Source: Rariglobus sp.
Lineage (GTDB): Bacteria; Verrucomicrobiota; Verrucomicrobiia; Opitutales; Opitutaceae
Assembly: GCA_029266495.1 (NCBI GenBank)
Contig: JAQSWS010000012.1
Location: 1 to 64,000 of the forward strand
Direction of reading: 5' to 3'
Length of the DNA: 64,000 nt
Shown here: one piece after another, positions 23,038 through 50,842 of the stretch
Numbering within the stretch: position 1 is the first letter of the stretch
Layout of the letters: the number at the start of each line of letters is the position of its first letter
Notes under the pieces: generated by a model
Told to the model about the DNA's origin: nothing
What the model saw: the letters and a program-made list of their open reading frames with translations, nothing else
The model's database searches: none
Position numbers and translations under genes: made by a program

Positions 23038-23751
23038 ATGAAATCCCCCTTTTTCTTTTGGCTGCTCCTGATCGTCGCCCTGCCGCAGCTGTCGCACGCC
23101 GAGGATCCCGCGCGAGTGTTTCGAGCGGTCGGCCTCGGCGACGAGGGCTTCAGCGACCTCCTTTACGATGTCAAAGGCGCGCCCGTCGCGTTCTCGGCAA
23201 ACTCCGGATCCTTCTCCAAAGACTATCCGGCGCCCGCGGGCTCCAAGCTTTCTTTCTATCGGCTGACGCCTCCTCCGGCCGACGCTCCTGCCGGAACCCT
23301 GCCCAAGAAAACGGTGGTTGCGCAAGTCGCCTATCCCGAGGACGCGACCAAGGTCATTCTACTGCTTTATCCGGCTCCCGCGCAGAGCGCCCTGCCAATC
23401 ACCGGCATGGTCATCACCGATCTGGAGGATCAGCACCGTTCGGGACATGCCCGCATCTGCAACCTGTCGTCGTTGCGTGCGGCATTCTCGGCTGGCGGTG
23501 ACATCGCCGAAGTGTCCCCGCGCACCACGGATCGTATCATGGCCACCGGCACAGGACCCTTGTTTCTCAAGACGGCGGCGCAGGGGGGCAACGGATGGCA
23601 GGCGGTCGACGCGATGGAGCGGAACCTGCCCGCCGATCTTCGTCTCTTCGTGATCATGGTCGATGCCCCGCCGTCCTACGAAGGAGGACCGCCCGTCCGC
23701 GGCGCGTTCCTCTACGATTTCAAGCGCCCGCCGATGAAGTTTCGCGAGTAA
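23038..23751 (+). CDS. Secreted hypothetical protein, partner of the prepilin-like protein
   Basis: The start at 23038 (MKSPFFFWLLLIVALPQLSHAED) gives a clean signal peptide with cleavage after SHA; the track start is a TTG overlapping the upstream stop. The 237-residue product has a mature part of mixed strands with no recognised catalytic motif. It contains VFRAVGLGDEGFSDLLYDVKG and repeated short hydrophobic strands (KVILLLYPAPA, LFVIMVDAPP). It begins 17 bp after the prepilin-like gene and is very probably co-transcribed, suggesting a role in the same surface structure. The family is not recognised. Confidence 0.7.
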   Translation: MKSPFFFWLLLIVALPQLSHAEDPARVFRAVGLGDEGFSDLLYDVKGAPVAFSANSGSFSKDYPAPAGSKLSFYRLTPPPADAPAGTLPKKTVVAQVAYPEDATKVILLLYPAPAQSALPITGMVITDLEDQHRSGHARICNLSSLRAAFSAGGDIAEVSPRTTDRIMATGTGPLFLKTAAQGGNGWQAVDAMERNLPADLRLFVIMVDAPPSYEGGPPVRGAFLYDFKRPPMKFRE

Positions 23752-23828
23752 GGGCTCCTCTGCCGGGTCACCGGCATCGCGACGCCCTGAATTGCCCCTG
23801 CCTGAAAACCGCCTCGTTCACCCGGATC

Positions 23829-23844
23829 GCGATACAGTTAACGC
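23829..23844. promoter_or_regulatory. Putative operator, GCGATACAGTTAACGC
   Basis: It matches GCGTTA-N4-TAACGC with one mismatch (GCGATA in the left arm). It lies 99 bp upstream of the PEP-CTERM repeat protein gene in a 191-bp intergenic region. Confidence 0.55.
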
Positions 23845-23942
23845 AACAGCCCGCTCTGTGTGCCGGTAAAACTATCCTACTGTTCATCAACCCCGACAGC
23901 TCCCCCCGCCCCTGCATTTATTCCCGTCTGAATTTTTGTATC

Positions 23943-26900
23943 ATGAAAATCCCTACACTCCAAAAAACACGGCATGGACGCTCCTTCGCCACCATGCTTT
24001 CCGCCGCCGGTATTCTGCTGGCGAGTCCCGCAATGCAGGCGGCCACATTGAGCTGGGACTCCGATGGCATCTTCAATAACGGCACGCTCGGCGGCACGGG
24101 CGCTTGGAACACCTCGTCGGCATTCTGGGACGACGGCACGACCGATACCGCGTGGGCGACGAACACCATTACTGACGACACCGCGCTGTTCGCCGGCACG
24201 GCCGGGACGGTCACCCTGGGCTCGGCGATCAATGCCTTGGGACTCCAGTTTATCACGACCGGTTACACCATCGCCACCGGTGCGAACACCCTCACGCTGG
24301 GTGCCGGCGGCATTGATGCCAGCGGACTCTCCAGCGGCACGACCGCGCTCACTGGCTTGATCTCGTTGGGCTCCGGCCAGTCGTGGAACGTCGGCAGCGG
24401 TTCGATCCTGACCTCCTCCGCCGTGATCAGTGGCACCGGCAATCTTGTTAAGACCGGCGCGGGCACGCTCACGCTGACAAATGCAACGAACACCTTCAGT
24501 GGTGGTTTAACGATCAACGCAGGCGTGGTCTCCATTGATAATAACGTGCGGCTGGGCGGCGCGAGCGGCACGGCGGGCGCGGTGACCTTGGACGGCGGCA
24601 CACTGCGGACGACCAATGCGACTGCCCTGACAAATACCCACGCCGTCACGATCGGCGCTAGCGGCGGCACGCTCAACATCGCGGGCGGCGCAACAACCGG
24701 CCAGGGCAGCCGCGTCATCTTTGGCACGGCCAATACCCTTTTGGGCAGCGGCGCACTCACCGTCACCGGCAACGGAACGGTAAGCCAAACGGGTGGCTCC
24801 GGTGTATTGGTGCTGACCGCCGCCAATAACGGAGTGGGAGGCTTTAGCGGAAATATCACGCTTCAAGATGGCGGCTTGCTGGCGATCGAAGCGGTCAACG
24901 GCCTCGCCTCGGCGGCAACGGTGACGCTTGGCAACAACTCCGAGTTTTCAATCGGAACGGGCAGCACGACCGTCACGGCGGCGAACAACATCACGGTCAA
25001 CGGCACGAACAGCGTGCTGAGTTTCACCGGCAGCGGATCGAGTGTTTACTCCGGATCCATTACCCTGAACGCCGACCTGACTGTCAGCCTGCGCGACTGG
25101 TATCAGCAAACGGGAAGAAACGGCGTGATCTCCGGCACCATCTCAGGTTCTAAGAAAATCACGGTCAACACGACGACCGCCAATACCGGAACCGGCAACA
25201 CGCTCACCCTCGCAGGGTTTGATGCGAAAGCGAGTTCGGCCGACTGGGTGATGAACGGAGCGAACTTGTCGATTAACAGCAACTCGGGAACTGCGGTAGC
25301 CTCGGTGGCGCGCGGGAACAGCCTCACGATCAACACCGGCAATCTCACGGTAACCGGTGTCGCCAGTCAGGCGACAAACGACGTTTTCGGCACCCTCAAC
25401 CTCGGCGGAGGTTCGTCGGGTAACCTCCAAGGCTACAGCACGTGGACGCTTACTCCGAACGCGGCCACGAACGCCGCCCTCACCTTCACCAACATGGGCA
25501 CCCGCACGGCAGGAAGCTGGGTTGCCCTGACAGGCACCTTCGGCGGCACGCCCGCCGCAAACATGGGGAACATCTATTTCACAAACGGGCTTTCCGGTGC
25601 GAACCTGATCGGTGCCGGCGGAACGCTCGCGAGCGGAACCGCAAGCGTCATTCCCTGGCTGCGCGACAACGGTGGCAACACCATCTATGGCTATGACGCC
25701 ACCAACGGCGTCGCCGCCATCACGTCGGTATCTACCACGAATCTCAACACGACAACGTCCGGCCAGAATATCGTCTTGGGTGGCACCAATGGAACCACTC
25801 AGACCCTCACGGGAGACAAAACCATCAATTCGCTCAAAGCGGGTTTCATCAATGTCAATATGGGTGGCAACACGCTGACGGTCGCCAGTGGCGTCATCAC
25901 AGCCGACAACTCGACCTTCAGCAACGGAACGCTCAATTTCGACACAGCCGAAGGACAACTATCCGTGCACAATGCCCGCACGCTGACCATCAACAGCGCC
26001 ATCGCCGGCAGCGGCGGTCTTACCTATGTCGGTTTCCGCACCACCGTCGATCCATCCCTGATCCTGGCCGGAGCTAACACCTACACCGGAGTCACCAACT
26101 TCTACGGCTACGGCGGCAACACCAACGTCCGGTTGACCAACTCGCTGGCCCTGCAGAACAGCACGCTCAACCATGTGGCCAGCCGCGGCTACACGATGAC
26201 CTTTGGCAACGGCGGCACCTCCGGACAGACCGCCTATACCTTCGGCGGCCTGTCAGGTAATGCGAACCTCAACCTGAATAACAACAATACCACGGTGGGT
26301 GCGGTTGCGCTCACCGTCGGTGGCAACAACGCGAGCACCACCTACAGCGGCGTCCTCAGCAGCACCGTCGCTGGCGGCAGTCTCACCAAAGCCGGCAGCG
26401 GCACACTGACGCTCTCGGGCGTCAACACCTACACCGGTGCGACCACCGTCAGCGACGGCACGCTCGCCCTCGCATCGACCGGCACGCTCGCCTCCACCGC
26501 CTACACCGTCGCCAACGGCGCCGTCTTCAACGCCTCCACCAAGTCCAGCTACAGCCTGGCCTCCGTCGCCACGACGATCGGCGTGGGTGCGACCACCGCC
26601 GGTTTCTTTAACGGACCAAGCGGCGCATTGACCCTCGGTAACAGCCTCACGCTGGACTTCTCCACCTCGTTGCTCGCCAATGGTCAGACTTACAACCTCT
26701 TCGACTTCGGCAGCCAGACCGGTGACTTCAGCTCCGTTACCCTCGGCGGCAGCATCGTCGCCTCGCTCCTGCTCACCAGCGCCGACACCTGGACCGGTTC
26801 CGACAGCTTGAACACCTACACCTTCAGCTTCAGCGAAGTATCCGGCATCCTCTCCGTCTCCGCCGTCCCCGAGCCTTCCACCTACGCCGTGCTCGTCGGG

Positions 26901-26957
26901 GTGCTCATATTCGGCACGGTGGCTCTTCGCCGCCGCCGCGCCTCCCTCCAAGACTGA
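23943..26957 (+). CDS. Autotransporter-type beta-strand repeat protein with PEP-CTERM anchor
   Basis: The start at 23943 (MKIPTLQKTRHGRSFATML) gives a signal peptide ending PAMQA; the track extension upstream overlaps the previous gene and is rejected. The 1004-residue protein is Thr/Asn/Gly/Ala-rich and built of passenger-like beta-helix repeats. Clear autotransporter-associated repeats read LVKTGAGTLTLTNATNTFSG near residue 168 and LTKAGSGTLTLSGVNTYTGA near residue 814. The C-terminus is a PEP-CTERM sorting signal: VPEPSTYAVLVGVLIFGTVALRRRR, a motif plus hydrophobic helix plus basic tail processed by an exosortase. There is no outer-membrane beta-barrel, so it is exported and anchored rather than self-transported. 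An operator-like repeat precedes it and a strong terminator follows. Confidence 0.85.
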   Translation: MKIPTLQKTRHGRSFATMLSAAGILLASPAMQAATLSWDSDGIFNNGTLGGTGAWNTSSAFWDDGTTDTAWATNTITDDTALFAGTAGTVTLGSAINALGLQFITTGYTIATGANTLTLGAGGIDASGLSSGTTALTGLISLGSGQSWNVGSGSILTSSAVISGTGNLVKTGAGTLTLTNATNTFSGGLTINAGVVSIDNNVRLGGASGTAGAVTLDGGTLRTTNATALTNTHAVTIGASGGTLNIAGGATTGQGSRVIFGTANTLLGSGALTVTGNGTVSQTGGSGVLVLTAANNGVGGFSGNITLQDGGLLAIEAVNGLASAATVTLGNNSEFSIGTGSTTVTAANNITVNGTNSVLSFTGSGSSVYSGSITLNADLTVSLRDWYQQTGRNGVISGTISGSKKITVNTTTANTGTGNTLTLAGFDAKASSADWVMNGANLSINSNSGTAVASVARGNSLTINTGNLTVTGVASQATNDVFGTLNLGGGSSGNLQGYSTWTLTPNAATNAALTFTNMGTRTAGSWVALTGTFGGTPAANMGNIYFTNGLSGANLIGAGGTLASGTASVIPWLRDNGGNTIYGYDATNGVAAITSVSTTNLNTTTSGQNIVLGGTNGTTQTLTGDKTINSLKAGFINVNMGGNTLTVASGVITADNSTFSNGTLNFDTAEGQLSVHNARTLTINSAIAGSGGLTYVGFRTTVDPSLILAGANTYTGVTNFYGYGGNTNVRLTNSLALQNSTLNHVASRGYTMTFGNGGTSGQTAYTFGGLSGNANLNLNNNNTTVGAVALTVGGNNASTTYSGVLSSTVAGGSLTKAGSGTLTLSGVNTYTGATTVSDGTLALASTGTLASTAYTVANGAVFNASTKSSYSLASVATTIGVGATTAGFFNGPSGALTLGNSLTLDFSTSLLANGQTYNLFDFGSQTGDFSSVTLGGSIVASLLLTSADTWTGSDSLNTYTFSFSEVSGILSVSAVPEPSTYAVLVGVLIFGTVALRRRRASLQD

Positions 26958-27111: not shown

Positions 27112-29631
27112 ATGAGTTCCTCCTCCCCTTCGTCGCGCAGCTCACGCTTTCCACGTTCAGCGGCCAGGCCACTTGCACCTCGTCGTGCGCCGAGCGCCAC
27201 GCTCCTGGCGGCGAGTCTCTTGGGCGCAATGTCCTTGGTCCCTGCATGGGCGGGTCCCGGCGATCGAGGAACTCCTCCGCAGGTCGCCGCTCCCGCAACA
27301 ATCTCCGTGCAGGCCGACAAACCCGGTCACGCGATTTCACCGCTGCTCTGGGGAATCTTTTTCGAGGACATCAACCTCGCCGCCGACGGCGGGCTCTATC
27401 CGGAGCTCATTCGCAACCGCTCCTTCGAGGGCAGCGATGCGCTGCGTTTTTGGAAGTTCACCTCCGCCGCCGGGACCGGAGCCGAGCCGTCCCGATCCAT
27501 CGACGAGTCCCGCCCGCTGAACGCCTTCAACCGCCGCAGCCTGCACGTGCGCCCCGGCGGCGCCGGCTGTGTGCTGGAGAACGAAGGCTACTGGGGCATG
27601 CGTTTCGTCGCCGGCGAAACGTGCACCTTCCGCGTCGCCGCCCGCACGGGCGATGGCTTCAATGGCGCCCTCCGCGTCCAGCTTTGCGATTCCACCGGCG
27701 CCGTGATCGCTTCCGGCGAACTCTCCGGCTTCGGCCCCGGCTGGAAACAGCACAGCCTTGCGCTCACGCCTTCGAAGTCCGATCCGCGTGGCCAGCTGAA
27801 GCTGCACGTGCCGGGCGATGCATCCGGCAAGGGGTCCCTGTTTCTCGACATGATCTCGCTCATGCCGGTGAAAACCTGGAAAGGCCACGGCCTGCGCGAG
27901 GACCTCGCGGAAGCAATGAGCTCGCTGAAGCCCGCGTTCTTCCGGTTCCCCGGTGGCTGCTGGGTGGAAGGTGAGGACATCGCCGGCGCCTACCGGTGGA
28001 AGGAAACCATCGGCGACGTCGCCTCCCGCACGCAGCTCGAGAACCTGTGGGACTACAACGCCACGCAGGGCCTCGGCTACCACGAGTATCTCCAGTTGTC
28101 CGAGGACCTCGGTGCGGAACCGGTCTTCTGCATCAACGTCGGCATGGCGCACCACGAGTCCGTGCCGCTCGACCGCATGGGCGCGTGGGTGCAGGACGCG
28201 CTCGACGCCATCGAATACGCCACCGGCCCCGCGGATTCCGTGTGGGGCTCGCTTCGTGCGAAAAACGGACACCCCGCGCCCTTCAATCTCCGCATCGTCG
28301 AGATCGGCAACGAAAACGGCGGCGCCGACTACGCCGCGCGCTGGCCGCTCTTCGTCAAGGCGATCAAAGCCAGATATCCCGAGATCACCCTGATCGCGAA
28401 CCACTGGCAGAATGGCTATCCGAAGGAACCCATGCCGGAGGTCGTGGACGAGCATTACTACGACACTCCCGAAGGCTTCATGCGCCGCGCGACGCACTAC
28501 GACGGCTACGACCGCAAGGGCCCGAAGATATTTGTCGGTGAATACGCCGCCACCAAGCGCGCCGGTCTCGGCAACCTCCGCGCCGCGATCGGCGAAGCCG
28601 CCTTCATGACCGGTCTGGAGCGCAACGCCGACATCGTGACGATGGCCGCCTACGCGCCCTTGTTCACCAATGTTAACCACCGCGCGTGGAATCCCGATCT
28701 CATCAATTTCGACAGCGCGGGCTGGTATGGCATCCCCGGCTACCACGTGCAGCAGCTCTTCAGCCTGAACGCCGGCGACGTCACGCTGCCCATCGACGTG
28801 CAGAGTGCGGAACTGCCGCAGGAGAATCCGCGGGGGCGGATCGGCCTCGGCACCTGGAACACGCAGGCCGAATTCAAGGATCTCAAGGTGACCGCTCCCG
28901 ACGGAAAGGTCCTCTTCGCCGCGGACTTCGCCGGCAGGGGCACCGAGGGCTGGACCTTTCTCGGCGGCGGCGAGTGGAGCGTGAAGGACGGCGTGTTGCG
29001 CCAGACCTCCGAAAAACAAAAACTCCGTGCGCTCGTCGGCGACCCTGCCTGGACGGACTACACCATCGAATTGAAGGCCCGGAAGCTCGCCGGCCGCGAA
29101 GGCTTCCTGGTGCTTTTCCACAACGAATCAGACGAGGATCGCACCGCCTGGAACCTCGGCGGTTGGGGCAACAAGTATTACGCCTTGGTTCTCGCCGACT
29201 CCGACGAACGCAAGGAAGGCTCGATCGAGACCGGTCACTGGTATGATGTGCGCGTGCAGCTCGACGGCGACCGCGTCCGCGGGTGGCTCGACGGAAAACT
29301 CGTCCACGACTTCCGCCGCCCGCACCTCACCACGAAGGCGATCTATGCCAGCGCCACGCGCGACAAGGACACCGGCGAGATCATCCTCAAGGTGGTCAAC
29401 ACCGCCGCCGGCCCGACCGAGACAACCATTCATCTCGCCGGCATCACGGCCATCTCCGGCCAGGCGCAGGCCACCGTGCTCACCTCGGAAAAACCCACCG
29501 ACGAGAACTCCCTCGCCGAGCCGCGCAAAGTCGCGCCGCGCACAGAGGAAGTCACGATCCCGGGCCCGCGCTTCACCCGCAGCTTCCCCGGCAACTCCCT
29601 CACCGTGCTGCGAATCCCCGTCGGAAAATAA
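27112..29631 (+). CDS. Secreted GH51 alpha-L-arabinofuranosidase with inserted jelly-roll module
   Basis: Predicted to release arabinofuranose from arabinan, arabinoxylan or arabinogalactan. The 839 residues start with a long basic, Ser/Arg-rich signal region ending VPAWA. A GH51 N-terminal part (ISPLLWGIFFEDINLAADGGLYPELIRNRSFEG) leads into the barrel with FRFPGGCWVEGEDI, the acid/base glutamate in VEIGNENGGADYA, and the probable nucleophile in VVDEHYYDTPEGF. Around residues 570-755 a concanavalin/LamG-like domain (WNTQAEFKDLKVTAPDGKVLF to WLDGKLVHDFRRP) interrupts the C-terminal beta domain, which then resumes with DTGEIILKVVNTAAGPTE. It lies 36 bp upstream of an alginate-lyase-family gene on the same strand. 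A paralogue without the insert is at 48878. Confidence 0.92.
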   Translation: MSSSSPSSRSSRFPRSAARPLAPRRAPSATLLAASLLGAMSLVPAWAGPGDRGTPPQVAAPATISVQADKPGHAISPLLWGIFFEDINLAADGGLYPELIRNRSFEGSDALRFWKFTSAAGTGAEPSRSIDESRPLNAFNRRSLHVRPGGAGCVLENEGYWGMRFVAGETCTFRVAARTGDGFNGALRVQLCDSTGAVIASGELSGFGPGWKQHSLALTPSKSDPRGQLKLHVPGDASGKGSLFLDMISLMPVKTWKGHGLREDLAEAMSSLKPAFFRFPGGCWVEGEDIAGAYRWKETIGDVASRTQLENLWDYNATQGLGYHEYLQLSEDLGAEPVFCINVGMAHHESVPLDRMGAWVQDALDAIEYATGPADSVWGSLRAKNGHPAPFNLRIVEIGNENGGADYAARWPLFVKAIKARYPEITLIANHWQNGYPKEPMPEVVDEHYYDTPEGFMRRATHYDGYDRKGPKIFVGEYAATKRAGLGNLRAAIGEAAFMTGLERNADIVTMAAYAPLFTNVNHRAWNPDLINFDSAGWYGIPGYHVQQLFSLNAGDVTLPIDVQSAELPQENPRGRIGLGTWNTQAEFKDLKVTAPDGKVLFAADFAGRGTEGWTFLGGGEWSVKDGVLRQTSEKQKLRALVGDPAWTDYTIELKARKLAGREGFLVLFHNESDEDRTAWNLGGWGNKYYALVLADSDERKEGSIETGHWYDVRVQLDGDRVRGWLDGKLVHDFRRPHLTTKAIYASATRDKDTGEIILKVVNTAAGPTETTIHLAGITAISGQAQATVLTSEKPTDENSLAEPRKVAPRTEEVTIPGPRFTRSFPGNSLTVLRIPVGK

Positions 29632-29667: not shown

Positions 29668-32600
29668 ATGTCTCGCCCTACCCCTGTCTCCATTCTCCTG
29701 TTGCTCCTGTTTTTCGTCGCCGGCGGCCCGGCCGCTACGACGGCGCAACCAGCCTCGACGATCTTGACGAACAACGTCGTCGAGCTGCGCGAGACCGTCT
29801 CGCCGCAGGGCTTCGTGCACCCGGGCGTCAGTTGCAACGCCGGGACGCTCGCCGTCATGCGTGAAAAGGTGATCGCGGGTGTATCCCCTTGGGTGGACCA
29901 CTTCGAGGGCATCCGTCGCACGCGTTTCGCCGACCCGAAGCGCAAACCCGCGCGCGTCGATCAAATCGTCAACGATAGAGGGATCGGCAGCTTCGCGCAC
30001 GACGCGCATCTGGCCTGGGCCCAAACCATCCTCTACGTGGTCACCGGCAACGAGGAATACCGGAAACTCCCGGTGGAAATCATCAAGTGGTATGGCTCGC
30101 GCACCGAAAAGAGTTTTTTCCCGGCGTATTTTGAAGACAGCCACATCAAGATCGGCAAATACGTCTATACCCTGGCCAGCGCCGTCGACATCCTGCGCGC
30201 GACCACACCGAAGGATCCGCGGCTCGCCGTGACGCCGGCGATGATCGCCGCGCTTCAGCAAAACTGTTTTCTCCCGATCCGGAAAAACTGCATCGAGCGT
30301 AACGACTACTTCATGAACCAGCATTCCTATGCGGTCATGGGCTATCTCGCGTCCACGATTCTCGGGGATGAAGTCGAGTCCTACAAACAGGCCGTGGAGT
30401 GGACCACCGTGAACGCCACGACCACCAATCCGGGGCGCGACGGCTCGATCAAAAACCAGATCCGCTTGGTGACGCGTAACGACAAAACCGGCGAAGCCGT
30501 CGAGCCGTCCCTTCAGCTGGCGGAGATGGGCCGCGACATGCCTCACGCGGAGGGCAACCTCACCAATCTGTTGATGATGGCGAAGACCATCGATTTTCAG
30601 AAGACGAAGGTCGACCCGGTCGCTGGCACCGTCACCGCCAAGGCGGACGGGCTTTCTCCCATTCGTTTTCTGGACGACCGCCTGCCCAAGGGCGCGGCGC
30701 TCTTCGCGAAGTTCAACCTGGGCTTCGGACTGCCCTGGGTGCCGATCTATTCCGAGACCGATCCCAAGCATCCGGATTATCTGGCCCGCTATGATCACAT
30801 CAGCCCCCGGGGACGCGGTGTAGCCGGTGTCACTCACCACTACTACTATTACAAGGGCATAGGACTCGACATGGAGACCGGGTCGAACCGCTACATCAAA
30901 GCGGCCTTTGACGCCACGGCCGCCGGCCGGGAGCACGCGCGCTCCGGCAGCTACTTTGATAGCATCCATAATTACGGTTTCGATTTCTGGATCGGCCTTC
31001 CCGCGACCTCATCCGACGCCGCGCCGGACCCGAAGAAAGCGAAGCGCGCGCTCGCGAAAGTGCTGCCTCCGCTCGAAGTGACGCACGAGGGGCGTCCCCT
31101 GGACGGACGGCAATTCGAGTATCGCTTCGTGGATTTGTCGGCCATCGCCCAGCCCGGCGATATCTATCCCGGCTCGCCGGACGATATTCCCCTGAAGGTT
31201 CAGCGCGACACCGACGGCACGGGCTACGTCCGCATGGCCATCAACCAGGCCCCCCGCACCGTGGTGGTCACCGGCCGCGTCCCCCGGGACTCCGGCTTGC
31301 GCGTGCGCAGCGACGGTTTTGTGAAACTGCGTTTTTACCGAAACGAGGATTTTTCCCGGACCGGCGGTCCGCTCCAGGAACTCTACATCCCGAACACGGG
31401 CGGGGAGTGGGTTCACGTGATTCCCGACGTGGTGGGCTACGGCCTGCTCTATATCCAGGCCACTCCGCTCGCCGGTGCCGCGACACTCGATTTCGACCGC
31501 ATCGAGACGGACGCATCCGCCATCCGCCCGCTCGCGTTCGATCCCCCGGGCGACGCCCTCGCCATCCCCGCCTATGCCGGAGCGCGTATCGGGAAAACCA
31601 TTAAGATTTCGGGCGGTTCGAGATCCGCGACCCTCCGGACGCTGAATCTTCCTGCCGGCGCGGCCTTCGACGCCGTCACTGGCACGTTCTCGTGGACGCC
31701 TGCCGCGAAGCAGACGGGCGATCATGCGCTCTACGTCGTCGCGCGCGACAGCGACACGATGCGGACGTTGCGCGTGGATATCCACGTGGCCCGTGACCTG
31801 CAGGCGGCGCTGGACTTCGTCGCCCGCCCCTACGATCCGGCGCAGCGTTACCTTTCGACGACCGAGCAGCCGTTCAAGGCGGCACTGGCGGCCCGCGACC
31901 TGACCGCTTTGCGGCGGGCCGTTGATGGGTTGAAGCTCGTGAGCCCCCGCCTGCCCGACGGCACCCTCGACTATCGCGTGGCCGTTAATTCCTCGGAGCA
32001 CGGCGTCAACAACATGGCCGACGCCGATCCGTTCTCCTTCGGCGGCATCTGGGGCTTCGATAAAAACGTCACGCTGGATTTCGGAAATAACTTTAAGGTG
32101 AAGTCCGAGGCGTTCCGCATGCTGGCCCGCGACGGCCATCCGGTGCGCGTGTCGGAAGCCGTCGTCTATGGCTCGAACGACCGCAGACACTGGACCCTGT
32201 TGACCGAGAACAAAACCGTCAGCTCCTCCGACTGGCACATCCTCACCGTCAAAGCGGAGGAGCGGAACAAGCCCTACCGGTATATCCGTCTGTTCATGCC
32301 GGCCAAACCGTTCCCCATTTTCGAGATCGCGGAGTTCCGCATCGTCGGCGAACGCGTCGAGGACCACAGCCCGGATCTGCGCGTGGCCTACATCTCGGGT
32401 TATGCGGACGGCACCTTCCGTCCGGACCAAAAGCTGACCAAGGCGGAGGCGGTCTCGTTGCTGGCCGGCTTGGTCGACGACTACACCGACAAGGGCGCTT
32501 ATGACTGCGCCTTCGTCGATGTGCCGCGCACCGCGCCCTACTTCGACGACGTGGCCTACATATCGCGCAAAGGCGTCGGGAATAAATTTTTCCAGCCGGT

Positions 32601-32913
32601 GAAGTATGTCGTCGGCGATGCCGCCAACCGTTTCCATCCCGACGCGCCCATCACGCGCGGGGAGCTGGCTGCGATCATGGCGCGCATGCAGGGATTAAAA
32701 GAAGGCGACTCCCCTGCATCGAAGAAGGTGTCATCCAACGCCCCCGTGACCCGCGCGGAGTTTGTAATCGCCGTCAACCGCATGACCGGGCGGAACGGCA
32801 CCGAGCTGCCACGCGAGAACCTGCCGAAGTTCTCGGACGTGCGTGCCTCTCACCCGGCCTACGACGACATCATGCGAGCCGCCGCCACGTATCCGGTTCT
32901 GGTGGCGAAGTGA
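29668..32913 (+). CDS. Secreted alginate-lyase-superfamily protein with discoidin and S-layer homology repeats
   Basis: The 1081-residue protein has a signal peptide (cleavage near TTAQP), then an alpha/alpha-toroid alginate-lyase-type region (about 40-430): FVHPGVSCNAGTLAVMREKV, a helix-rich middle and NQHSYAVMGYLASTILG. Next come a beta-sandwich, a putative Ig-like unit (about 640-710, LPAGAAFDAVTGTFSWTPAAK) and an F5/8-type discoidin domain (about 770-895, VYGSNDRRHWTLLTEN). The last 175 residues hold three S-layer homology (SLH) repeats: YISGYADGTFRPDQKLTKAE, RFHPDAPITRGELAAIM and PVTRAEFVIAVNRMTG. SLH repeats bind secondary cell-wall polymers in Gram-positives and are uncommon in diderms, hinting at transfer or a cell-surface role. 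The substrate is not certain to be alginate. Confidence 0.82.
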   Translation: MSRPTPVSILLLLLFFVAGGPAATTAQPASTILTNNVVELRETVSPQGFVHPGVSCNAGTLAVMREKVIAGVSPWVDHFEGIRRTRFADPKRKPARVDQIVNDRGIGSFAHDAHLAWAQTILYVVTGNEEYRKLPVEIIKWYGSRTEKSFFPAYFEDSHIKIGKYVYTLASAVDILRATTPKDPRLAVTPAMIAALQQNCFLPIRKNCIERNDYFMNQHSYAVMGYLASTILGDEVESYKQAVEWTTVNATTTNPGRDGSIKNQIRLVTRNDKTGEAVEPSLQLAEMGRDMPHAEGNLTNLLMMAKTIDFQKTKVDPVAGTVTAKADGLSPIRFLDDRLPKGAALFAKFNLGFGLPWVPIYSETDPKHPDYLARYDHISPRGRGVAGVTHHYYYYKGIGLDMETGSNRYIKAAFDATAAGREHARSGSYFDSIHNYGFDFWIGLPATSSDAAPDPKKAKRALAKVLPPLEVTHEGRPLDGRQFEYRFVDLSAIAQPGDIYPGSPDDIPLKVQRDTDGTGYVRMAINQAPRTVVVTGRVPRDSGLRVRSDGFVKLRFYRNEDFSRTGGPLQELYIPNTGGEWVHVIPDVVGYGLLYIQATPLAGAATLDFDRIETDASAIRPLAFDPPGDALAIPAYAGARIGKTIKISGGSRSATLRTLNLPAGAAFDAVTGTFSWTPAAKQTGDHALYVVARDSDTMRTLRVDIHVARDLQAALDFVARPYDPAQRYLSTTEQPFKAALAARDLTALRRAVDGLKLVSPRLPDGTLDYRVAVNSSEHGVNNMADADPFSFGGIWGFDKNVTLDFGNNFKVKSEAFRMLARDGHPVRVSEAVVYGSNDRRHWTLLTENKTVSSSDWHILTVKAEERNKPYRYIRLFMPAKPFPIFEIAEFRIVGERVEDHSPDLRVAYISGYADGTFRPDQKLTKAEAVSLLAGLVDDYTDKGAYDCAFVDVPRTAPYFDDVAYISRKGVGNKFFQPVKYVVGDAANRFHPDAPITRGELAAIMARMQGLKEGDSPASKKVSSNAPVTRAEFVIAVNRMTGRNGTELPRENLPKFSDVRASHPAYDDIMRAAATYPVLVAK

Positions 32914-32946: not shown

Positions 32947-35223
32947 ATGATTCCTCGTCTGCCCCGCATCGGCCTTTTTCTGCTCGCGCTGTTCATCGGG
33001 CAGGCCGGCTCGGCTCTCGCCCAGGAATTCGTTCACCCCGGCGGCCTCCATTCCCAAGCCGACATCGATCGCATGAAAGCCAAGGTGGCCGCGGGCGAGA
33101 GTCCGTGGATTGACGGCTGGAATGCGCTTATCCGGGACTCCAAAGCGAAGGCCGATTACAGGCCCGCGCCTCACCGTCACATGATGGACCGCGGGCGGGC
33201 GCAGCGGGACGCCAGCGCCGCCTACCTCAACGGTCTGCGTTGGGTTATTTCTGGCGACACCGCGCATGCCGACTGCGCCGTGCGCATTCTCAACGCCTGG
33301 TCCGGAACGGTGAACGAGGTTTCCCATGGCAACGATCAGCCGGGCTTGGGTGGCATCCCCATCGGCACCTTCGCGGTCGCGGCGGAGTTGCTGCGTGGAT
33401 ACACCGGCTGGTCCGCCGCCGACCAGACACGCTTCAAGCGCATGCTCGTGGATTACTTTTATCCCGTCTGCCACGATTTCCTCACTCGTCACAACGGCCG
33501 TTGCGACTCGGCCTTCTGGGCCAATTGGGACACCTGCAATATGCGCGCGATCATGGCCATTGGCGTCTTCTGCGACGACCGCGCAAAATTCAACGAGGCC
33601 GTCGAGTATTTCAAAAACGGCCGCGGCACCGGCTCGATTCGCAACGCCACGCCCTTCCGTTTCGAAAACGGTCTGGTCCAATGGCAGGAGAGCGGTCGCG
33701 ACTACGCCCACGTCATGGGCGGCCAGGGTCTGCTCATGGAAATGTGCCAGATCGCCTGGAACCAAGGACTCGACCTCTTCGGCTACGACAACAACCGCCT
33801 GCTCGGCGCCGCCGAACACGCCGCCCAATACACCCTCTGGAAAGGCGTCCCCTACACCTATTACAACAACTGCGACAACGCCAACCAGTTCTACATCTCC
33901 GAGAACTACCACGGGCGTCTCGACGCCTCCCATTTCGAGCTGGTCTACAACCACTACGTCGTTCGCCAAGGACTGAAGGCGCCGCACGTGAAACTCTTCG
34001 CCGCGCTCCGCCGTCCCGAGCCGGGCGAGATCGATGTCCTGGGTTACGGCACGCTCACCTACACGCTCGATGTCGCCGCGTCTCCGCTGCAGACCGAAGC
34101 GCCGCCGACACCGCGCGAAGTCATCGCGATTCCGGGACTGCAACGCGTCGAACTGAAATGGTCGCCCTCCGGCGCCTACAGCGCGCACGGCTACGAAGTC
34201 AGCCGCGCCACCTCTCCGGGCGGCCCGTTCACCTCCATCTATTCGACCAGCCGCTGGACCACGCCTTCCTACACTGACACCGATGTCGAGCCCGACCGCA
34301 GCTACCACTACACCGTCGCCGCGCTCAACAAGGCCGGCAAAAGTGCGCCGTCTGCACCCGTGAGCGTCGTCCCGGCCAAGGGAGAAGCGCTGCCCCGCGA
34401 CAGCCGGCGTGTCTCCGCCACCGGCACGCTCTATTCCAAGGCGGCCAAAAATTCGTTCGTCGTGCCCGCCACGGGCCGCGAGTTGGACGGGAGTTTCGCC
34501 GGCCAATCCGTGGACGGTGACTTCAGCATCACCGCACGACTGGTTGATTGGAATGGATCCGTCGGCATGGCGGGACTGACTGTTCGGGCACCGGGTGCGA
34601 ACAAGCCTCGCGCCCTGGCGGTGACCTTGGGCGAAATCGGCGGACGCCTCGCGCGCTTTCGCACGCGGAACGATGGGAAAACCACCGTCCAGTCCGGCTG
34701 CGACTACACCTGGTTGTCCGTCTGGTTCCGCATCCGACGCGTGGGCGACGAATTCACCGCCTACCAATCTTCCGATGGCATCGAGTGGTTCAAGGTCGGC
34801 CAGAGCACCGTCGCGCTGCCCCGCACCGCGCTGGTCGGCCTGCTCGCGAGCACCGGCGGGACTCCGCCCGGCCGAAAAGCAACAGATTCGCCCCAAGGCG
34901 TCTTCGACCACGTCGCGATCGAGCGGCAGCCGCCACCCCCGCCTTCCGCTCCCGTCGCGCTCGCCGCGACCGCGCTCGACGGCGGCATGGTGCGCCTGGA
35001 CTGGGAAAATGCCTCCGGAACAGCTCAAGCCGGCGTGAAGATCGAAGCTTCGCTGGACGGCGCACCGTTCTACGAAATCGCCGACCTCGCTGCCAACACC
35101 TCCCGCTTTGAAAACACCGGAATCGAGCGTTCCTCCGCCCTCCGTTATCGTATCCGTTCCTACAATACAGGCGGCTATTCGACCTACTCGAACGTCTCTC
35201 CGGACGCGCCCGCACCGCAATAG
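32947..35223 (+). CDS. Secreted alginate-lyase-superfamily protein with Fn3 and sandwich modules
   Basis: The 758-residue protein has a signal peptide (cleavage after SALA) and starts its mature part FVHPGGLHSQADIDRMKAKVAAGESPWIDGW, the same entry motif as its two paralogues here. The alginate-lyase-type helical domain spans about 26-370, with ANWDTCNMRAIMAIGVFCDD and GRDYAHVMGGQGLLMEMCQIAW. A fibronectin type III domain (about 385-475) is followed by a concanavalin-like sandwich (DUF1349-type, about 490-660, FTAYQSSDGIEWFKVGQ) and a final Fn3-like unit (VALAATALDGGMVRLDWEN). It lies 33 bp after the SLH-bearing paralogue and 48 bp before lacI paralogue 2. It probably cleaves or binds a uronate-containing plant or algal polysaccharide; exact activity unknown. 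Confidence 0.82.
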   Translation: MIPRLPRIGLFLLALFIGQAGSALAQEFVHPGGLHSQADIDRMKAKVAAGESPWIDGWNALIRDSKAKADYRPAPHRHMMDRGRAQRDASAAYLNGLRWVISGDTAHADCAVRILNAWSGTVNEVSHGNDQPGLGGIPIGTFAVAAELLRGYTGWSAADQTRFKRMLVDYFYPVCHDFLTRHNGRCDSAFWANWDTCNMRAIMAIGVFCDDRAKFNEAVEYFKNGRGTGSIRNATPFRFENGLVQWQESGRDYAHVMGGQGLLMEMCQIAWNQGLDLFGYDNNRLLGAAEHAAQYTLWKGVPYTYYNNCDNANQFYISENYHGRLDASHFELVYNHYVVRQGLKAPHVKLFAALRRPEPGEIDVLGYGTLTYTLDVAASPLQTEAPPTPREVIAIPGLQRVELKWSPSGAYSAHGYEVSRATSPGGPFTSIYSTSRWTTPSYTDTDVEPDRSYHYTVAALNKAGKSAPSAPVSVVPAKGEALPRDSRRVSATGTLYSKAAKNSFVVPATGRELDGSFAGQSVDGDFSITARLVDWNGSVGMAGLTVRAPGANKPRALAVTLGEIGGRLARFRTRNDGKTTVQSGCDYTWLSVWFRIRRVGDEFTAYQSSDGIEWFKVGQSTVALPRTALVGLLASTGGTPPGRKATDSPQGVFDHVAIERQPPPPPSAPVALAATALDGGMVRLDWENASGTAQAGVKIEASLDGAPFYEIADLAANTSRFENTGIERSSALRYRIRSYNTGGYSTYSNVSPDAPAPQ

Positions 35224-36471: not shown

Positions 36472-39324
36472 ATGAAAAAGACACTGCTTGCCCTGGTGTG
36501 CGCGCTTTCGTGCACCCTTACCGCGGCTCTCGCCTACGTCCATCCAGGCGCTCCGCTTACCCTCTCGGATCTCCAGACTCTGAAGGCGAACGTCGACAAC
36601 AACCGGGAGCCCTGGAAATCCGGCTACGCGGCGCTGGCGGCCGACTCCCGCTCCCAGCTCACCTACACCATGCAGGGGCCGTTCGCGACCGTGAGCCGCG
36701 CCCCCCACCTGAACCGCAACCAGTGGATGAACGACATGACCGCGGTCTGGAATCTCTCGCGCATGTGGTATTTCACCGGCAATTCCGCCTACGCGCAGAA
36801 GGCACACGACATCCTGCTCGCGTGGGCGAACACGCAGACTGCGTTTTCCGGCGGCGAATCGATGCTCGATTTGGGAGACTTCGCCTACGCATTCGTGGGC
36901 GGCGCGGACATTCTGCGCGGCACCTGGGCGGGCTGGACGGCGGCCGACACAACTACGGTGAAGGCTTATTTCACCAACGTCCTCCTGCCTGCCAGCAATC
37001 CGTATGGCGAGAGCATGTTCGGCGCCGCGAACAAAGGTGCGCTGGCCCTCGTCGCCTGCGGGCTGATGTCGATTTTCAACGACGACACCGCCAGGCTCGA
37101 CACGGTCACATACCAGGTTCGCACACTCGCGCATATCGGCCTGCGCAGTTCCAACGACATCGGCCTGCTCGGCGATTCCCTCCGCGACCAGGGCCACGGC
37201 CACGGGCAGCTTGTCTCGCTGGCCATGCTCGCCGAAGCGCTCTGGAAACAGGGCATCGACGTCTACTCCGATTCCAACAACCGCCTGCTCGCCGCCGGCG
37301 AATATTTCGCGCGGGTGAACAACCTCGTCCCCACGCCGTTTCTTCCCTTCGGCACCACCGATTGGTATTATTACACCGACGGCACCAACCGCGGCTGGGG
37401 AGGCGGAAACACGGCGCTCAGCATCCTTCACGGCGCCTATGTCGTCCGCAAGGGCCTCCCCGCTCCCTATATGGCGCGGAGGCTCCAGGAGATGCCGGTG
37501 AGTGCGGACAGCTTTATGTTCCTCAAAGAGGCCGACTCCTCCACGGCAACGCCGGCGGCGGCGCTGCCGATTCCCTCCACCACCTCGATCACCTCGGGGT
37601 TCACCAACGTCCAAATCGGTGGCGCCTCCCCCGCTGGCGCGGCCTCCTACTCCGGCGGCACCTGGACGGTGCAGGGCGGCGGCGCGGAAATATGGGGCGA
37701 GAACGACAGTTGCCATTTCACCTACAAAGCGGTCACCGGCGACTGCGCCATCATCGCGAAGGTCAATTCGGTTCAGAACACCAGCCTTTCCACCAAAGCC
37801 GGCGTGATGATTCGCACGAGTCTCAGCCAGGGCGCTCCCCGCGTCTGGATGGCCGTCACTCCCCGGATCCAGTTCGAGCAAAATCTCAAGGGCCTCGCCG
37901 TGTATGGCGGCGCCAACTACGGCAACAAGGCCTACGACATCGGAACTCCCACTGCCTCGTATTGGGTGAAGCTCGAGCGCATCGGGAACATCGTCACCGG
38001 CTATGTTTCCCCCGATGGCACCAACTGGGCGGCCACCGAGGTCGGCCGCCTCGATTCACCTCCGGCCACGTGGTATGTCGGACTGGTGGTCTGCTCGGTT
38101 GCGAATGGCACGCTGAACACATCGACCTTCAGCAACGTCGAGATCACCGGCGGCAATGGTGGCGCTCCCGTCGTCACTCCCGCCGCGCCCGCCGCCCTCC
38201 TGGCCGCACCGGGTGAGAATGCCGTCCCGCTGCGCTGGCAGCCGTCCTTCGGCGCCACCAGCTACACGATCAAGCGTGCCACCACCAGCGGCGGCACCTA
38301 TTCAACCGTTGCCTCGGGCGTCATCGCCAGCAGCTACACGGACAAGACGGTGACCAACGGCACGACCTATTACTACGTCGTCAACGCGATCAATTCCGCA
38401 GGCACGAGCGCCAATTCTCCCGAGGACAGCGTGACACCGGTCAGCCCGATGGTGAACCTCGCCTTCGGCGGCACGGCCAGCTCCAGCGTGGTTGGCGCCC
38501 CCGCCTGGGAGCAAGCCGACCAGGCCTTCAACCGCAACTCCGGCTCAAAATGGCATAACGGCAACGCCACCAACCCCGGCCCCGCCGGCTGGCTTCGCTA
38601 CGACTTCGGCGCGGGCAACGCCCAGACCGTGAAACGCTACACGCCGGTCAGTGCCGACGTGGCAAACCGCGACCCCAAGAGCTGGACCTTCCAAGGCTCG
38701 AACGACGGTTCGACCTGGACGACGCTCGATACACAAAGCAACCAGGTCTTCCCAACCCGGAATCATGCCAACACCTACAACATCGGCAACACGACCGCCT
38801 ACCGCTACTACCAGCTCAATATCACCGCCAACAACGGCGGCGGCTCGCTGGCGATCGGCGAACTCGGTCTCTGGTCCGACACCGGCCGCACGATAATGGA
38901 CGGCACCTACCGCGTCATCAGTAAGAAAAGCAAGAAGGTCCTCGACGTTTACAACAGCGGCACCACCGATGGCATGAATGTCCAGCAGTGGGGCTGGACC
39001 GGTGGCAACAACCAGAAGTGGACACTCACGCACCTGGGCAACGGCCAGTATCAGGCCATGGGTGTTGGCAGCGGCAAGTTGCTCGAAGTTGCGGGTGCCT
39101 CCACTGCCAATGGTGCGAACATCCAAATTTTCACCTCGAACAATAACAATTGTCAGAAGTGGACCGTCACACCGACGGGCGACGGAAACTACAAATTCCT
39201 GAACGTGAACAGCGGCAAAGCCGTCGACGTGAGCGGCGGAAGCACCGCCGACGGGGCCAACGTCCTCCAATGGTCCTATAGCGGCGCGGATAACCAGCAA
39301 TGGAGGATCTCCATCGCTCCGTAA
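36472..39324 (+). CDS. Secreted alginate-lyase-superfamily protein with Fn3, discoidin and ricin-type lectin
   Basis: The 950-residue protein starts MKKTLLALVCALSCTLTAALAYVHPG, a signal peptide followed directly by the alginate-lyase-type entry motif. The helical domain (about 20-345) includes NQWMNDMTAVWNLSRMWYFTG and LRDQGHGHGQLVSLAMLAEALW. Then follow a DUF1349/concanavalin-like sandwich (about 365-560), fibronectin type III (about 570-655), F5/8-type discoidin (about 660-805, GSKWHNGNATNPGPAGWLRYDF) and a ricin B-type lectin (about 808-950). The lectin carries three QxW-type motifs (NNQKW, NCQKW, DNQQW). It shares its catalytic domain with the genes at 29668 and 32947 but not their tails. 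The lectin and discoidin parts suggest galactose- or glycan-binding; the true substrate is unknown. Confidence 0.83.
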   Translation: MKKTLLALVCALSCTLTAALAYVHPGAPLTLSDLQTLKANVDNNREPWKSGYAALAADSRSQLTYTMQGPFATVSRAPHLNRNQWMNDMTAVWNLSRMWYFTGNSAYAQKAHDILLAWANTQTAFSGGESMLDLGDFAYAFVGGADILRGTWAGWTAADTTTVKAYFTNVLLPASNPYGESMFGAANKGALALVACGLMSIFNDDTARLDTVTYQVRTLAHIGLRSSNDIGLLGDSLRDQGHGHGQLVSLAMLAEALWKQGIDVYSDSNNRLLAAGEYFARVNNLVPTPFLPFGTTDWYYYTDGTNRGWGGGNTALSILHGAYVVRKGLPAPYMARRLQEMPVSADSFMFLKEADSSTATPAAALPIPSTTSITSGFTNVQIGGASPAGAASYSGGTWTVQGGGAEIWGENDSCHFTYKAVTGDCAIIAKVNSVQNTSLSTKAGVMIRTSLSQGAPRVWMAVTPRIQFEQNLKGLAVYGGANYGNKAYDIGTPTASYWVKLERIGNIVTGYVSPDGTNWAATEVGRLDSPPATWYVGLVVCSVANGTLNTSTFSNVEITGGNGGAPVVTPAAPAALLAAPGENAVPLRWQPSFGATSYTIKRATTSGGTYSTVASGVIASSYTDKTVTNGTTYYYVVNAINSAGTSANSPEDSVTPVSPMVNLAFGGTASSSVVGAPAWEQADQAFNRNSGSKWHNGNATNPGPAGWLRYDFGAGNAQTVKRYTPVSADVANRDPKSWTFQGSNDGSTWTTLDTQSNQVFPTRNHANTYNIGNTTAYRYYQLNITANNGGGSLAIGELGLWSDTGRTIMDGTYRVISKKSKKVLDVYNSGTTDGMNVQQWGWTGGNNQKWTLTHLGNGQYQAMGVGSGKLLEVAGASTANGANIQIFTSNNNNCQKWTVTPTGDGNYKFLNVNSGKAVDVSGGSTADGANVLQWSYSGADNQQWRISIAP

Positions 39325-48778: not shown

Positions 48779-48877
48779 TCCCTCATAGCACCTTTGTCCG
48801 CTCCCGTCTGGTCGCCAGTGCCGTGTCCGCGATGCCCCCGGTCGTGCCCGCCTGACCCTCCTTTACCCAAAATCCCG

Positions 48878-50842
48878 ATGATCACTCGCGCCAAGCCTTT
48901 CTGCTGCGCCGCCCTTCTCTCCGTCCTGCTGCCAGCAGCTCACGCGCAAACCACCGTGACAGTGCAGGCAGGCGCGCCCGGCAAGGCGATCAGCGCGGAC
49001 CTCGTTGGCATCTTTTTCGAGGATCTCAGCTACGCCGCCGATGGCGGCCTCTATGCCGAACTGATTCAGAATCGCTCCTTCGACTACTCGTCCGCCGATC
49101 ACCAGGACTGGACTTCTTTGACCGCCTGGCAACTCGTCCAGCGGGACGATGGTCGGGGCTCGGTCACGGTCGAAACCGCCAGACCGCTCAACGCACAAAA
49201 CCCCGGCTACGCCGTCCTCGTCGTCGAGGCCGCCGGCCACGGCGTCGGCCTGCTCAACGAGGGCTTCGACGGCATCGCGGTAAACGCCGGCGACACCTAC
49301 CACCTCTCGCTCTTCGCCCGTCAACTCGTCGGCACCGCCGCCCCGATTATCGTCCGCCTCGAAAGTAAAACGGGCGCCCCTCTCGCCGAAGACATTCTGC
49401 ATCCGCCCACCGGCGCCTGGGAAAAATTCACCGCCACCTTGCGTCCCGCGACCACCGATGCGGACGCCCGTCTCGTCGTCCTCGCCACCGGCGCGGGCCG
49501 GCTCGCACTCGACATGGTTTCCCTCTTCCCGGAAAAAACCTTCCGCAACCGCCCCAACGGCCTCCGCGCCGACCTCGCCCAGGTCATCGCCGACTTGAAG
49601 CCAAAGTTCATGCGTTTCCCCGGCGGCTGTCTCGTCCACGGCGACGGACTCGACAACATCTACCACTGGAAGGATACCATCGGCCCCGTCGAGCAGCGCA
49701 AAGGCCAGCCCAACATCTGGCGCTACCACCAGACGGCCGGCCTCGGCTATTTCGAATATTTCCAATTCTGCGAAGACATCGGCGCCAAGCCGCTGCCCGT
49801 CGTCGCCGCCGGCGTCTGCTGCCAAAACTCCAATTATCTCGTCACCAAAAAATATGGTGTCGGCCAGGAAGGCCTGCCGATGGAGAAGATGCCCGCCTAC
49901 GTGCAGGACGTGCTCGACCTCATCGAGTTTGCCAACGGCCCCGTCGCCTCGACCTGGGGCGCCAGGCGCGCCGCCGCCGGCCACCCCGAGCCCTTCGGAC
50001 TCCACTACCTCGGCGTCGGCAACGAGGATAAAATCACCCCGGTCTTCGAAGAACGCTTCCGCCTGATCAACGATGCCGTGAAAGCGAAGCATCCCGAGAT
50101 CGTGGTCATCGGCACCGTGGGCCCCAACCCTCAGGGCGAGGACTACGAAAAAGGCTGGAAATTCGCCAACGAACTCCGCCTCCCGATCGTGGACGAACAC
50201 GGTTACAAGTCGCCCCAGTGGTTCTGGGACAACCTCCGGCGCTACGACGCCTACGACCGCACCAAGTCCCAGGTTTACCTCGGCGAATGGGCCGCGCACG
50301 ACAACAAGCGCCGCACCACCTTGCGCGCCGCTCTCGCCGAAGCCGCCTTCCTCACCAGCCTCGAACGCAATGGTGATATCGTGCGCATGGCGTCCTACGC
50401 CCCGCTGCTCGCCAAGCGCGGCCACACGCACTGGGAGCCCAACCTCATCTATTTCACGAACACGGAAATCTTCCGCACAATCGGCTACCACGTGCAGCAG
50501 TTGTTCAGCGTGAACAATGGCGATACTTACCTCGCCACCACCGTGAGTCCCTCCGCCGCTCCCGGGCGTTTCGCCGCCTCGTCCGTGCACGACAGCAAAA
50601 CCGGCGACCTCATCTTGAAATTCGTCAACGGCGACGACACCGCCAGGTCGCTGCACATCGAACTCGCCGGTGCAAAAAATCTTCCCGCCACGGCGATGAA
50701 GACCGTCCTCGCCGGATCCGACGCCAGCATGACCGACGCACAGTCCGTCCGGCCGCAGTCCTCGTCCATGCCCATCGCCTCTGCGTTCGACTACGAGGCT
50801 CCGGCAAATTCGCTGACCGTGATTCGGGTCAAATTACGTTGA
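48878..50842 (+). CDS. Secreted GH51 alpha-L-arabinofuranosidase
   Basis: The start at 48878 (MITRAKPFCCAALLSVLLPAAHAQ) gives a signal peptide; the track start upstream is Pro/Cys-rich and unlikely. The 654-residue enzyme has ISADLVGIFFEDLSYAADGGLYAELIQNRSFD, RFPGGCLVHGDGLDNIYHWKDT, the acid/base glutamate in LGVGNEDKITP and the probable nucleophile in IVDEHGYKSPQWF. It ends with a C-terminal beta domain (LILKFVNGDDTARSLHIEL). It is a paralogue of the GH51 at 27112 but lacks that protein's inserted jelly-roll. It lies 99 bp after the transporter ATPase and 4 bp before a decayed GH43 fragment. Confidence 0.94.
   Translation: MITRAKPFCCAALLSVLLPAAHAQTTVTVQAGAPGKAISADLVGIFFEDLSYAADGGLYAELIQNRSFDYSSADHQDWTSLTAWQLVQRDDGRGSVTVETARPLNAQNPGYAVLVVEAAGHGVGLLNEGFDGIAVNAGDTYHLSLFARQLVGTAAPIIVRLESKTGAPLAEDILHPPTGAWEKFTATLRPATTDADARLVVLATGAGRLALDMVSLFPEKTFRNRPNGLRADLAQVIADLKPKFMRFPGGCLVHGDGLDNIYHWKDTIGPVEQRKGQPNIWRYHQTAGLGYFEYFQFCEDIGAKPLPVVAAGVCCQNSNYLVTKKYGVGQEGLPMEKMPAYVQDVLDLIEFANGPVASTWGARRAAAGHPEPFGLHYLGVGNEDKITPVFEERFRLINDAVKAKHPEIVVIGTVGPNPQGEDYEKGWKFANELRLPIVDEHGYKSPQWFWDNLRRYDAYDRTKSQVYLGEWAAHDNKRRTTLRAALAEAAFLTSLERNGDIVRMASYAPLLAKRGHTHWEPNLIYFTNTEIFRTIGYHVQQLFSVNNGDTYLATTVSPSAAPGRFAASSVHDSKTGDLILKFVNGDDTARSLHIELAGAKNLPATAMKTVLAGSDASMTDAQSVRPQSSSMPIASAFDYEAPANSLTVIRVKLR

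Follow-up and report, generated by a model that had tools for sequence, protein, structure and literature searches.

An orphan, circularly permuted SLH module on a putative polysaccharide lyase of a Rariglobus genome: evidence for lateral acquisition and probable re-use

Results

The SLH lyase gene and its surroundings

The window, a 64,000-nucleotide stretch of a Rariglobus contig, carries a gene for a large protein ending in S-layer homology (SLH) sequence (Table 1). This gene, hereafter the SLH lyase gene, starts 36 nt after a GH51 gene and ends 33 nt before a second lyase gene, so that an operon is likely. The interval 27112-61398 has the makeup of an arabinose/galactose polysaccharide locus, with two GH51, four GH43, GH35, GH31 and GH27 enzymes, three lyase-like proteins, LacI regulators and a sugar ABC importer. 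Positions 23595-26957 encode a large repeat-rich surface protein whose end (VPEPSTYAVLVGVLIFGTVALRRRR) is PEP-CTERM-like, a type of tail not present in the SLH lyase.

Table 1. Features of the SLH lyase gene and neighbouring genes (positions in the window)
Feature	Position	Strand	Basis
GH51-type alpha-L-arabinofuranosidase	27112..29631	+	Pfam, sequence
Whole SLH lyase gene, encoding a secreted polysaccharide-lyase-like protein of 1081 aa with several domains and an SLH tail	29668..32913	+	ORF, Pfam, homologues
Probable Sec signal peptide, residues 1-27	29668..29748	+	sequence; unconserved in relatives (10-17% identity)
Catalytic core, residues about 33-500, alginate-lyase-like alpha/alpha toroid	29764..31167	+	family tree, motifs, Foldseek
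Beta-rich part after core, residues about 500-645	31165..31602	+	alignment, model strands
Junction at absent LamG (Laminin_G_3), in frame	31600..31632	+	alignment columns about 651-868
He_PIG Ig-like module, residues 648-697	31609..31758	+	Pfam 27.2 bits, over cut-off
Discoidin/CBM32-62-like module, residues 799-879	32062..32304	+	Pfam F5_F8_type_C 18.8 bits, cut-off 28.2
SLH unit 1, reduced to its second half (loop, core helix; YISGYADGTFRPDQKLTKAE)	32389..32484	+	Pfam positions 24-43; alignment
SLH unit 2, complete (FVDV...ITRGELAAIM), Trp13 replaced by Pro957	32512..32700	+	Pfam, alignment; residue roles PMC6081394
Junction of 27-aa loss (SLH unit 3: first helix, loop)	32733..32740	+	alignments with all relatives
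SLH unit 3, reduced to its core helix (NAPVTRAEFVIAVNRM)	32737..32784	+	alignments
C-terminal first helix of permuted trimer (FSDVRASHPAYDDIMRAAATY), Trp13 replaced by Pro	32830..32892	+	alignment; confident helix in L002 model
Second lyase (Alginate_lyase, fn3)	32947..35223	+	Pfam 72.4 bits, sequence
Third lyase (Alginate_lyase, discoidin, ricin-B)	36472..39324	+	Pfam
GH51 arabinofuranosidase	48794..50842	+	75% identical to GH51 near SLH gene in L003

Only three full-length relatives were found, all 68-70% identical to the window protein: L002 (JAFGFZ010000495.1, a contig binned as Pirellulales) and the two copies of the Lentisphaerae MAG GWF2_50_93, L003 (MHBI01000045.1) and L004. GH51 genes flank the SLH gene in both Lentisphaerae copies, accompanied by GH43 in L003 and by GH127 and L-arabinose isomerase in L004, while in L002 the SLH gene is flanked by relatives of the third lyase of the window (46% and 45% identity). 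Our best guess is that the substrate is an arabinan or an arabinogalactan-like acidic polymer. Directly upstream of the Lentisphaerae SLH lyases lies a type-IV-pilin-like gene (N_methyl, DUF1559; L003:7000-7890 and L004:6994-7890), 88% identical between the two.

A lyase-like core with carbohydrate-binding modules

The initial annotation placed the protein in the alginate-lyase superfamily and described discoidin and Ig-like modules next to SLH repeats. The Pfam model Alginate_lyase (PF05426, cut-off 22.2 bits) does not match the SLH lyase itself; among its homologues L138 just passes (22.3 bits), L141 falls just under (22.1 bits) and several score below the cut-off. Foldseek aligned the window protein with alginate, ulvan and GAG lyases (PL39/PL17/PL40/PL33) at E values of 1e-7 to 1e-4, using an AlphaFold model of the full-length protein whose low confidence (pLDDT 57) makes it too weak for active-site mapping. 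No sequence relative of the core was found in the PDB. The core contains the invariant motifs NxxFMNQ and EMGRDxxH. The protein is probably a polysaccharide lyase of alginate-lyase-like fold, located outside the cell or in the periplasm, with predicted lyase activity. As to the modules, He_PIG was recovered by Pfam; the discoidin part, under its Pfam cut-off, resembles CBM62 by profile (E 7e-4) as well as galactose-binding CBM32 modules, and its fold matches CBM32/CBM62 in Foldseek.

The core family is multi-copy in Paenibacillaceae (17 of 105 genomes, mostly 27-38% identical), where several of its members end in canonical SLH trimers. One further family of the window's phylum (f49; L140-L142) has a related core lacking SLH.

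The tail is a circularly permuted SLH trimer

Presence of SLH-type repeats was confirmed. The Pfam SLH model (PF00395, cut-off 20.8 bits) matches the whole protein in three stretches with 54.3 bits (E 1.3e-14) and the isolated C-terminal part with 61.1 bits. The three TRAE-like motifs noted initially are all in place: LTKAE (residues 923-927), ITRGE (995-999) and VTRAE (1027-1031). They do not, however, mark three complete units. The first helix is missing from unit 1, unit 2 is whole, unit 3 is reduced to the second helix, and a fourth piece, consisting of a first helix only, ends the protein. The start of the region, initially set at 32370, falls at codon start 32371.

Alignment of the three relatives resolved this pattern, for their tails read second half unit, whole unit, whole unit and C-terminal first helix. 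Since the two terminal halves joined together make one unit, the tail is best described as a circularly permuted SLH trimer. In an AlphaFold2 model of the tail of L002, the closest relative (pLDDT 83.5, pTM 0.84), six helices are seen, the C-terminal one among them. Both chain ends form a short strand, consistent with the ends meeting. All of the top 15 PDB matches that Foldseek returned for this model are Sap/SpaA SLH trimers (3pyw: E 7e-7, TMt 0.72). The trimer fold is thus seen in a relative; the window tail gives a low-confidence model and misses one lobe helix.

Two Firmicute proteins, L047 of Paenibacillus and a Monoglobus amidase (WP_320691378.1), share this layout. This marks the SLH type as Firmicute-like, and the idea that the permutation was a PVC invention was dropped. 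A profile of the PVC tails has its best match in L047 (96 bits); affinities of the SLH part were judged by such profile scores, since this part is short and does not align in register with canonical trimers.

In two genomes of the same genus (G012 and G002), GH16 proteins carry an SLH-like segment between Golvesin_C and the catalytic domain (L031:934-2652 and L032:838-2709). At 18-22 bits the segment is borderline; it would be a second such use on a secreted carbohydrase in the genus.

Losses particular to the window copy

The relatives are 1308-1318 aa long and contain a LamG module (104-114 bits), whereas the window copy has 1081 aa and no LamG found by Pfam. Also missing are 27 aa common to all relatives. 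They correspond to the first helix of SLH unit 3 together with its loop, which is why this unit keeps only its second helix. Both deletions are in frame. The SLH tail itself is retained in all four copies of the family. Elsewhere in the same class, an FAD-dependent oxidoreductase (L112:1-2025, genome G331) bears a degenerate C-terminal SLH in which HPAF replaces the usual HWAY. Its third unit likewise lacks the first helix. As the protein is otherwise unrelated, such a loss may be tolerated.

Lateral spread among PVC bacteria

No full-length relative was found among 93 relatives from the window's order. Across 388 genomes of the phylum, full-length members are confined to the window and the two Lentisphaerae copies, and 298 genomes of the class to which Pirellulales belongs yielded none beyond L002. 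The family amounts to four known sequences, and for two of these the binning of the contig is doubtful. In the core tree the four PVC proteins form a 100/100 clade. Their cores are 76-78% identical (dN 0.13-0.16), as against 57-62% for RecA of the same genomes (dN 0.31-0.42). A core more conserved than RecA over such distances points to a lateral move; vertical inheritance, which would have accounted for the architecture had close verrucomicrobial homologues shared it, was rejected on this comparison and on the absence from the 93 order relatives. Carriage by a mobile element found no support, plasmid records and viral contigs being free of full-length relatives.

A local codon and GC comparison, proposed initially as a check on transfer, revealed no trace of a recent event: codon use is native and the gene resembles its neighbours. 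Recent transfer was accordingly rejected. The tetranucleotide profile of the window agrees with that of its own genome (r 0.99) and that of L004 with its own MAG (0.93). With codon use and composition both native, the arrival is not recent. The L002 and L003 contigs resemble other genomes more than their own MAGs in profile, and could be misbinned or acquired islands. Hence transfer is firmest for the pair formed by the window lineage and the Lentisphaerae MAG.

The closest pair among the PVC proteins is L002-L003, for core and SLH alike, which suggests that both parts travelled together within PVC. Their tail layout differs from that of the Paenibacillus core homologues, making it likely that a tail swap occurred before or during entry into PVC. 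Comparison of the sequences thus supports the view that enzyme and SLH were acquired laterally, though not recently, and that lyase core and SLH tail both have a Gram-positive root. The transfer from a Paenibacillus-type Gram-positive originally proposed is borne out in its general sense; the proximate relatives, however, are PVC bacteria and not Paenibacillus.

Ligand residues and selection

Canonical SLH anchoring is described as requiring pyruvylated ManNAc made with CsaB (PMC6030368). Searching three PVC genomes (G000, that of the window, G094 and G095) with the CsaB profile, another check suggested at the outset, gave nothing over cut-off. The best TIGR03609 score in the window genome was 11 bits against a cut-off of 213; Paenibacillus genome G096 gave 272 bits. 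No SLH proteins other than the SLH lyases (one or two per genome) occur in these PVC genomes, and in that of the window (4.9 Mb, 99.8% complete) nothing else scores over the SLH cut-off. One protein of the PF04230 polysaccharide pyruvyltransferase family was detected there (36-43 bits), so that some pyruvylated surface glycan is possible in the organism.

In SpaA, each active groove is built from Arg43, Gly29 and Trp13, each contributed by a different unit, with Trp13 as the ligand-stacking residue (PMC6081394). The corresponding residues of the PVC tails were read by hand from the alignment. Position 43 is occupied by Lys, Arg and Arg; position 29 by Gly in two units and mostly by Ala in unit 3. 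At the position of Trp13, unit 2 has Pro in three of the four PVC proteins and Leu in L004. In unit 3 the relatives have Pro and the window copy a deletion, and the closing helix carries Trp, Arg or Pro, with Pro in the window copy. Arg43 and Gly29 thus persist in part of the PVC grooves, and no groove of the window copy combines all three residues. The dN/dS ratio of the SLH part is about 0.2-0.3 (about 0.25), close to that of the discoidin and LamG parts. Judged by these rates, the tail is under purifying selection and is not junk.

Discussion

The explanation that we consider probable is that of a laterally acquired lyase whose orphan SLH is re-used as a polysaccharide-binding or scaffold domain; substrate, activity and binding role are our inferences. 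The enzyme would belong to a locus for an arabinose-rich, probably uronate-containing polysaccharide, and its C-terminus is a genuine SLH module in the circularly permuted form shared with Firmicutes. Enzyme and SLH unit would have moved as a whole among PVC bacteria from an older Firmicute root. In a diderm lacking CsaB, the SLH would no longer bind a pyruvylated wall polymer as canonical modules do, and may have been kept under selection as an extra, CBM-like or scaffolding domain, partly reduced in the window copy. The genome having no recognisable maker of the wall sugar, the tail is probably either a re-used or a decaying sugar-binding module. We would suggest only tentatively that in PVC diderms without CsaB the transferred SLH trimer has become a CBM reading an acidic plant or microbial polysaccharide substrate in place of the wall polymer of its host, and that such re-use recurs on the GH16 proteins and the FAD oxidoreductase.

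The second of these alternatives, decay, is the main rival, albeit a rather unlikely one: the tail would have come along with the transferred enzyme and, ligandless in its new host, be undergoing stepwise loss. Absence from the window copy of LamG, of the first helix and loop of unit 3 and of the last Trp13 fits this scheme, as does failure to find CsaB in the three PVC genomes. Yet the frame is intact, through two deletions, the SLH dN/dS is nearly as low as that of discoidin, no family copy has shed the tail, and the helix-less third unit recurs in L112.

Quite improbable is a tether to the organism's own envelope through a different ligand, the unusual envelope ligand of the initial annotation. 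SLH ligands besides the pyruvylated polymer do exist: in Veillonella, the SLH of OmpM binds polyaminated peptidoglycan (PMC10628300). Purifying selection on the tail and the single PF04230 protein would also suit such an anchor. Against it, several PVC lineages would need an identical ligand, and a genome with one SLH protein over cut-off is unlikely to have a dedicated anchoring system. PVC phyla are usually assigned to the Gracilicutes. OmpM is reported absent from this group (PMC10628300).

The canonical role, attachment to a pyruvylated secondary wall polymer, is compatible with the trimer fold modelled for L002 and with the partial retention of Arg43/Gly29, but very improbable given the diderm host, the CsaB searches in three genomes, the loss of Trp13 and the missing lobe of the window copy; the sequences do not support it. 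The initial reading as a surface-anchored enzyme in the usual sense is likewise not supported, since no CsaB was found in the three genomes, the canonical ligand residues are lost and the window copy lacks one lobe. Equally remote is an artefact of binning or assembly that would make the contig or the deletions unreal: all PVC sequences are draft contigs, and the L002 and L003 profiles are atypical, but the window and L004 match their genomes in composition, codons are native and the deletions preserve the frame.

SLH modules are automatically read as wall anchors, and the present case warns against annotating such proteins as surface-anchored. SLH-tailed enzymes of diderms without a known ligand-making enzyme, with ligand residues changed and the module still under selection, offer a natural test case for the function of an SLH module deprived of its ligand. 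The permuted half-unit layout explains the odd partial units that Pfam reports in such proteins. Finally, the family is a documented case of a polysaccharide-degrading cassette spreading between groups of PVC bacteria.

Among known systems, the lyase fold nearest to the window core is that of the PL39 alginate lyase Dp0100 (6JP4; Foldseek E 3.6e-7, from the model of pLDDT 57). Dp0100 is likewise a large multimodular lyase with a discoidin module, but there is no sequence match, and SLH is not among the Dp0100 modules mentioned in the available text. OmpM of diderm Terrabacteria shares with the window protein the occurrence of SLH in a diderm, and has other SLH partners (PMC10628300). It differs in being a porin of the outer membrane, each chain bearing a single N-terminal SLH, whereas the window protein is soluble and lyase-like, with C-terminal SLH and no barrel; neither Pfam nor the low-confidence model showed an OmpM-type combination of N-terminal SLH and outer-membrane barrel. 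Paenibacillus genome G096 combines CsaB with 75 SLH matches, unlike the PVC genomes. The SpaA and Sap trimers (6CWH, 3PYW, 6BT4) have the three-lobed fold of the PVC tail (TMt 0.72 with the L002 model) but are unpermuted, with a functional pocket for a pyruvylated wall polymer (PMC6081394). The Paenibacillus lyases L133, L135, L136 and L138 resemble the window protein most in composition, with a homologous core (about 30% identity), discoidin modules, a C-terminal SLH trimer and, by Pfam in L133, L135 and L138, He_PIG. Their tails differ in having the canonical unit order, with Trp13 in all three units of L133, L135 and L136. Lastly, L047 and the Monoglobus amidase share the half unit, unit, unit and closing first helix of the window tail, but bear it complete and on other proteins, and the L047 units keep Trp13.
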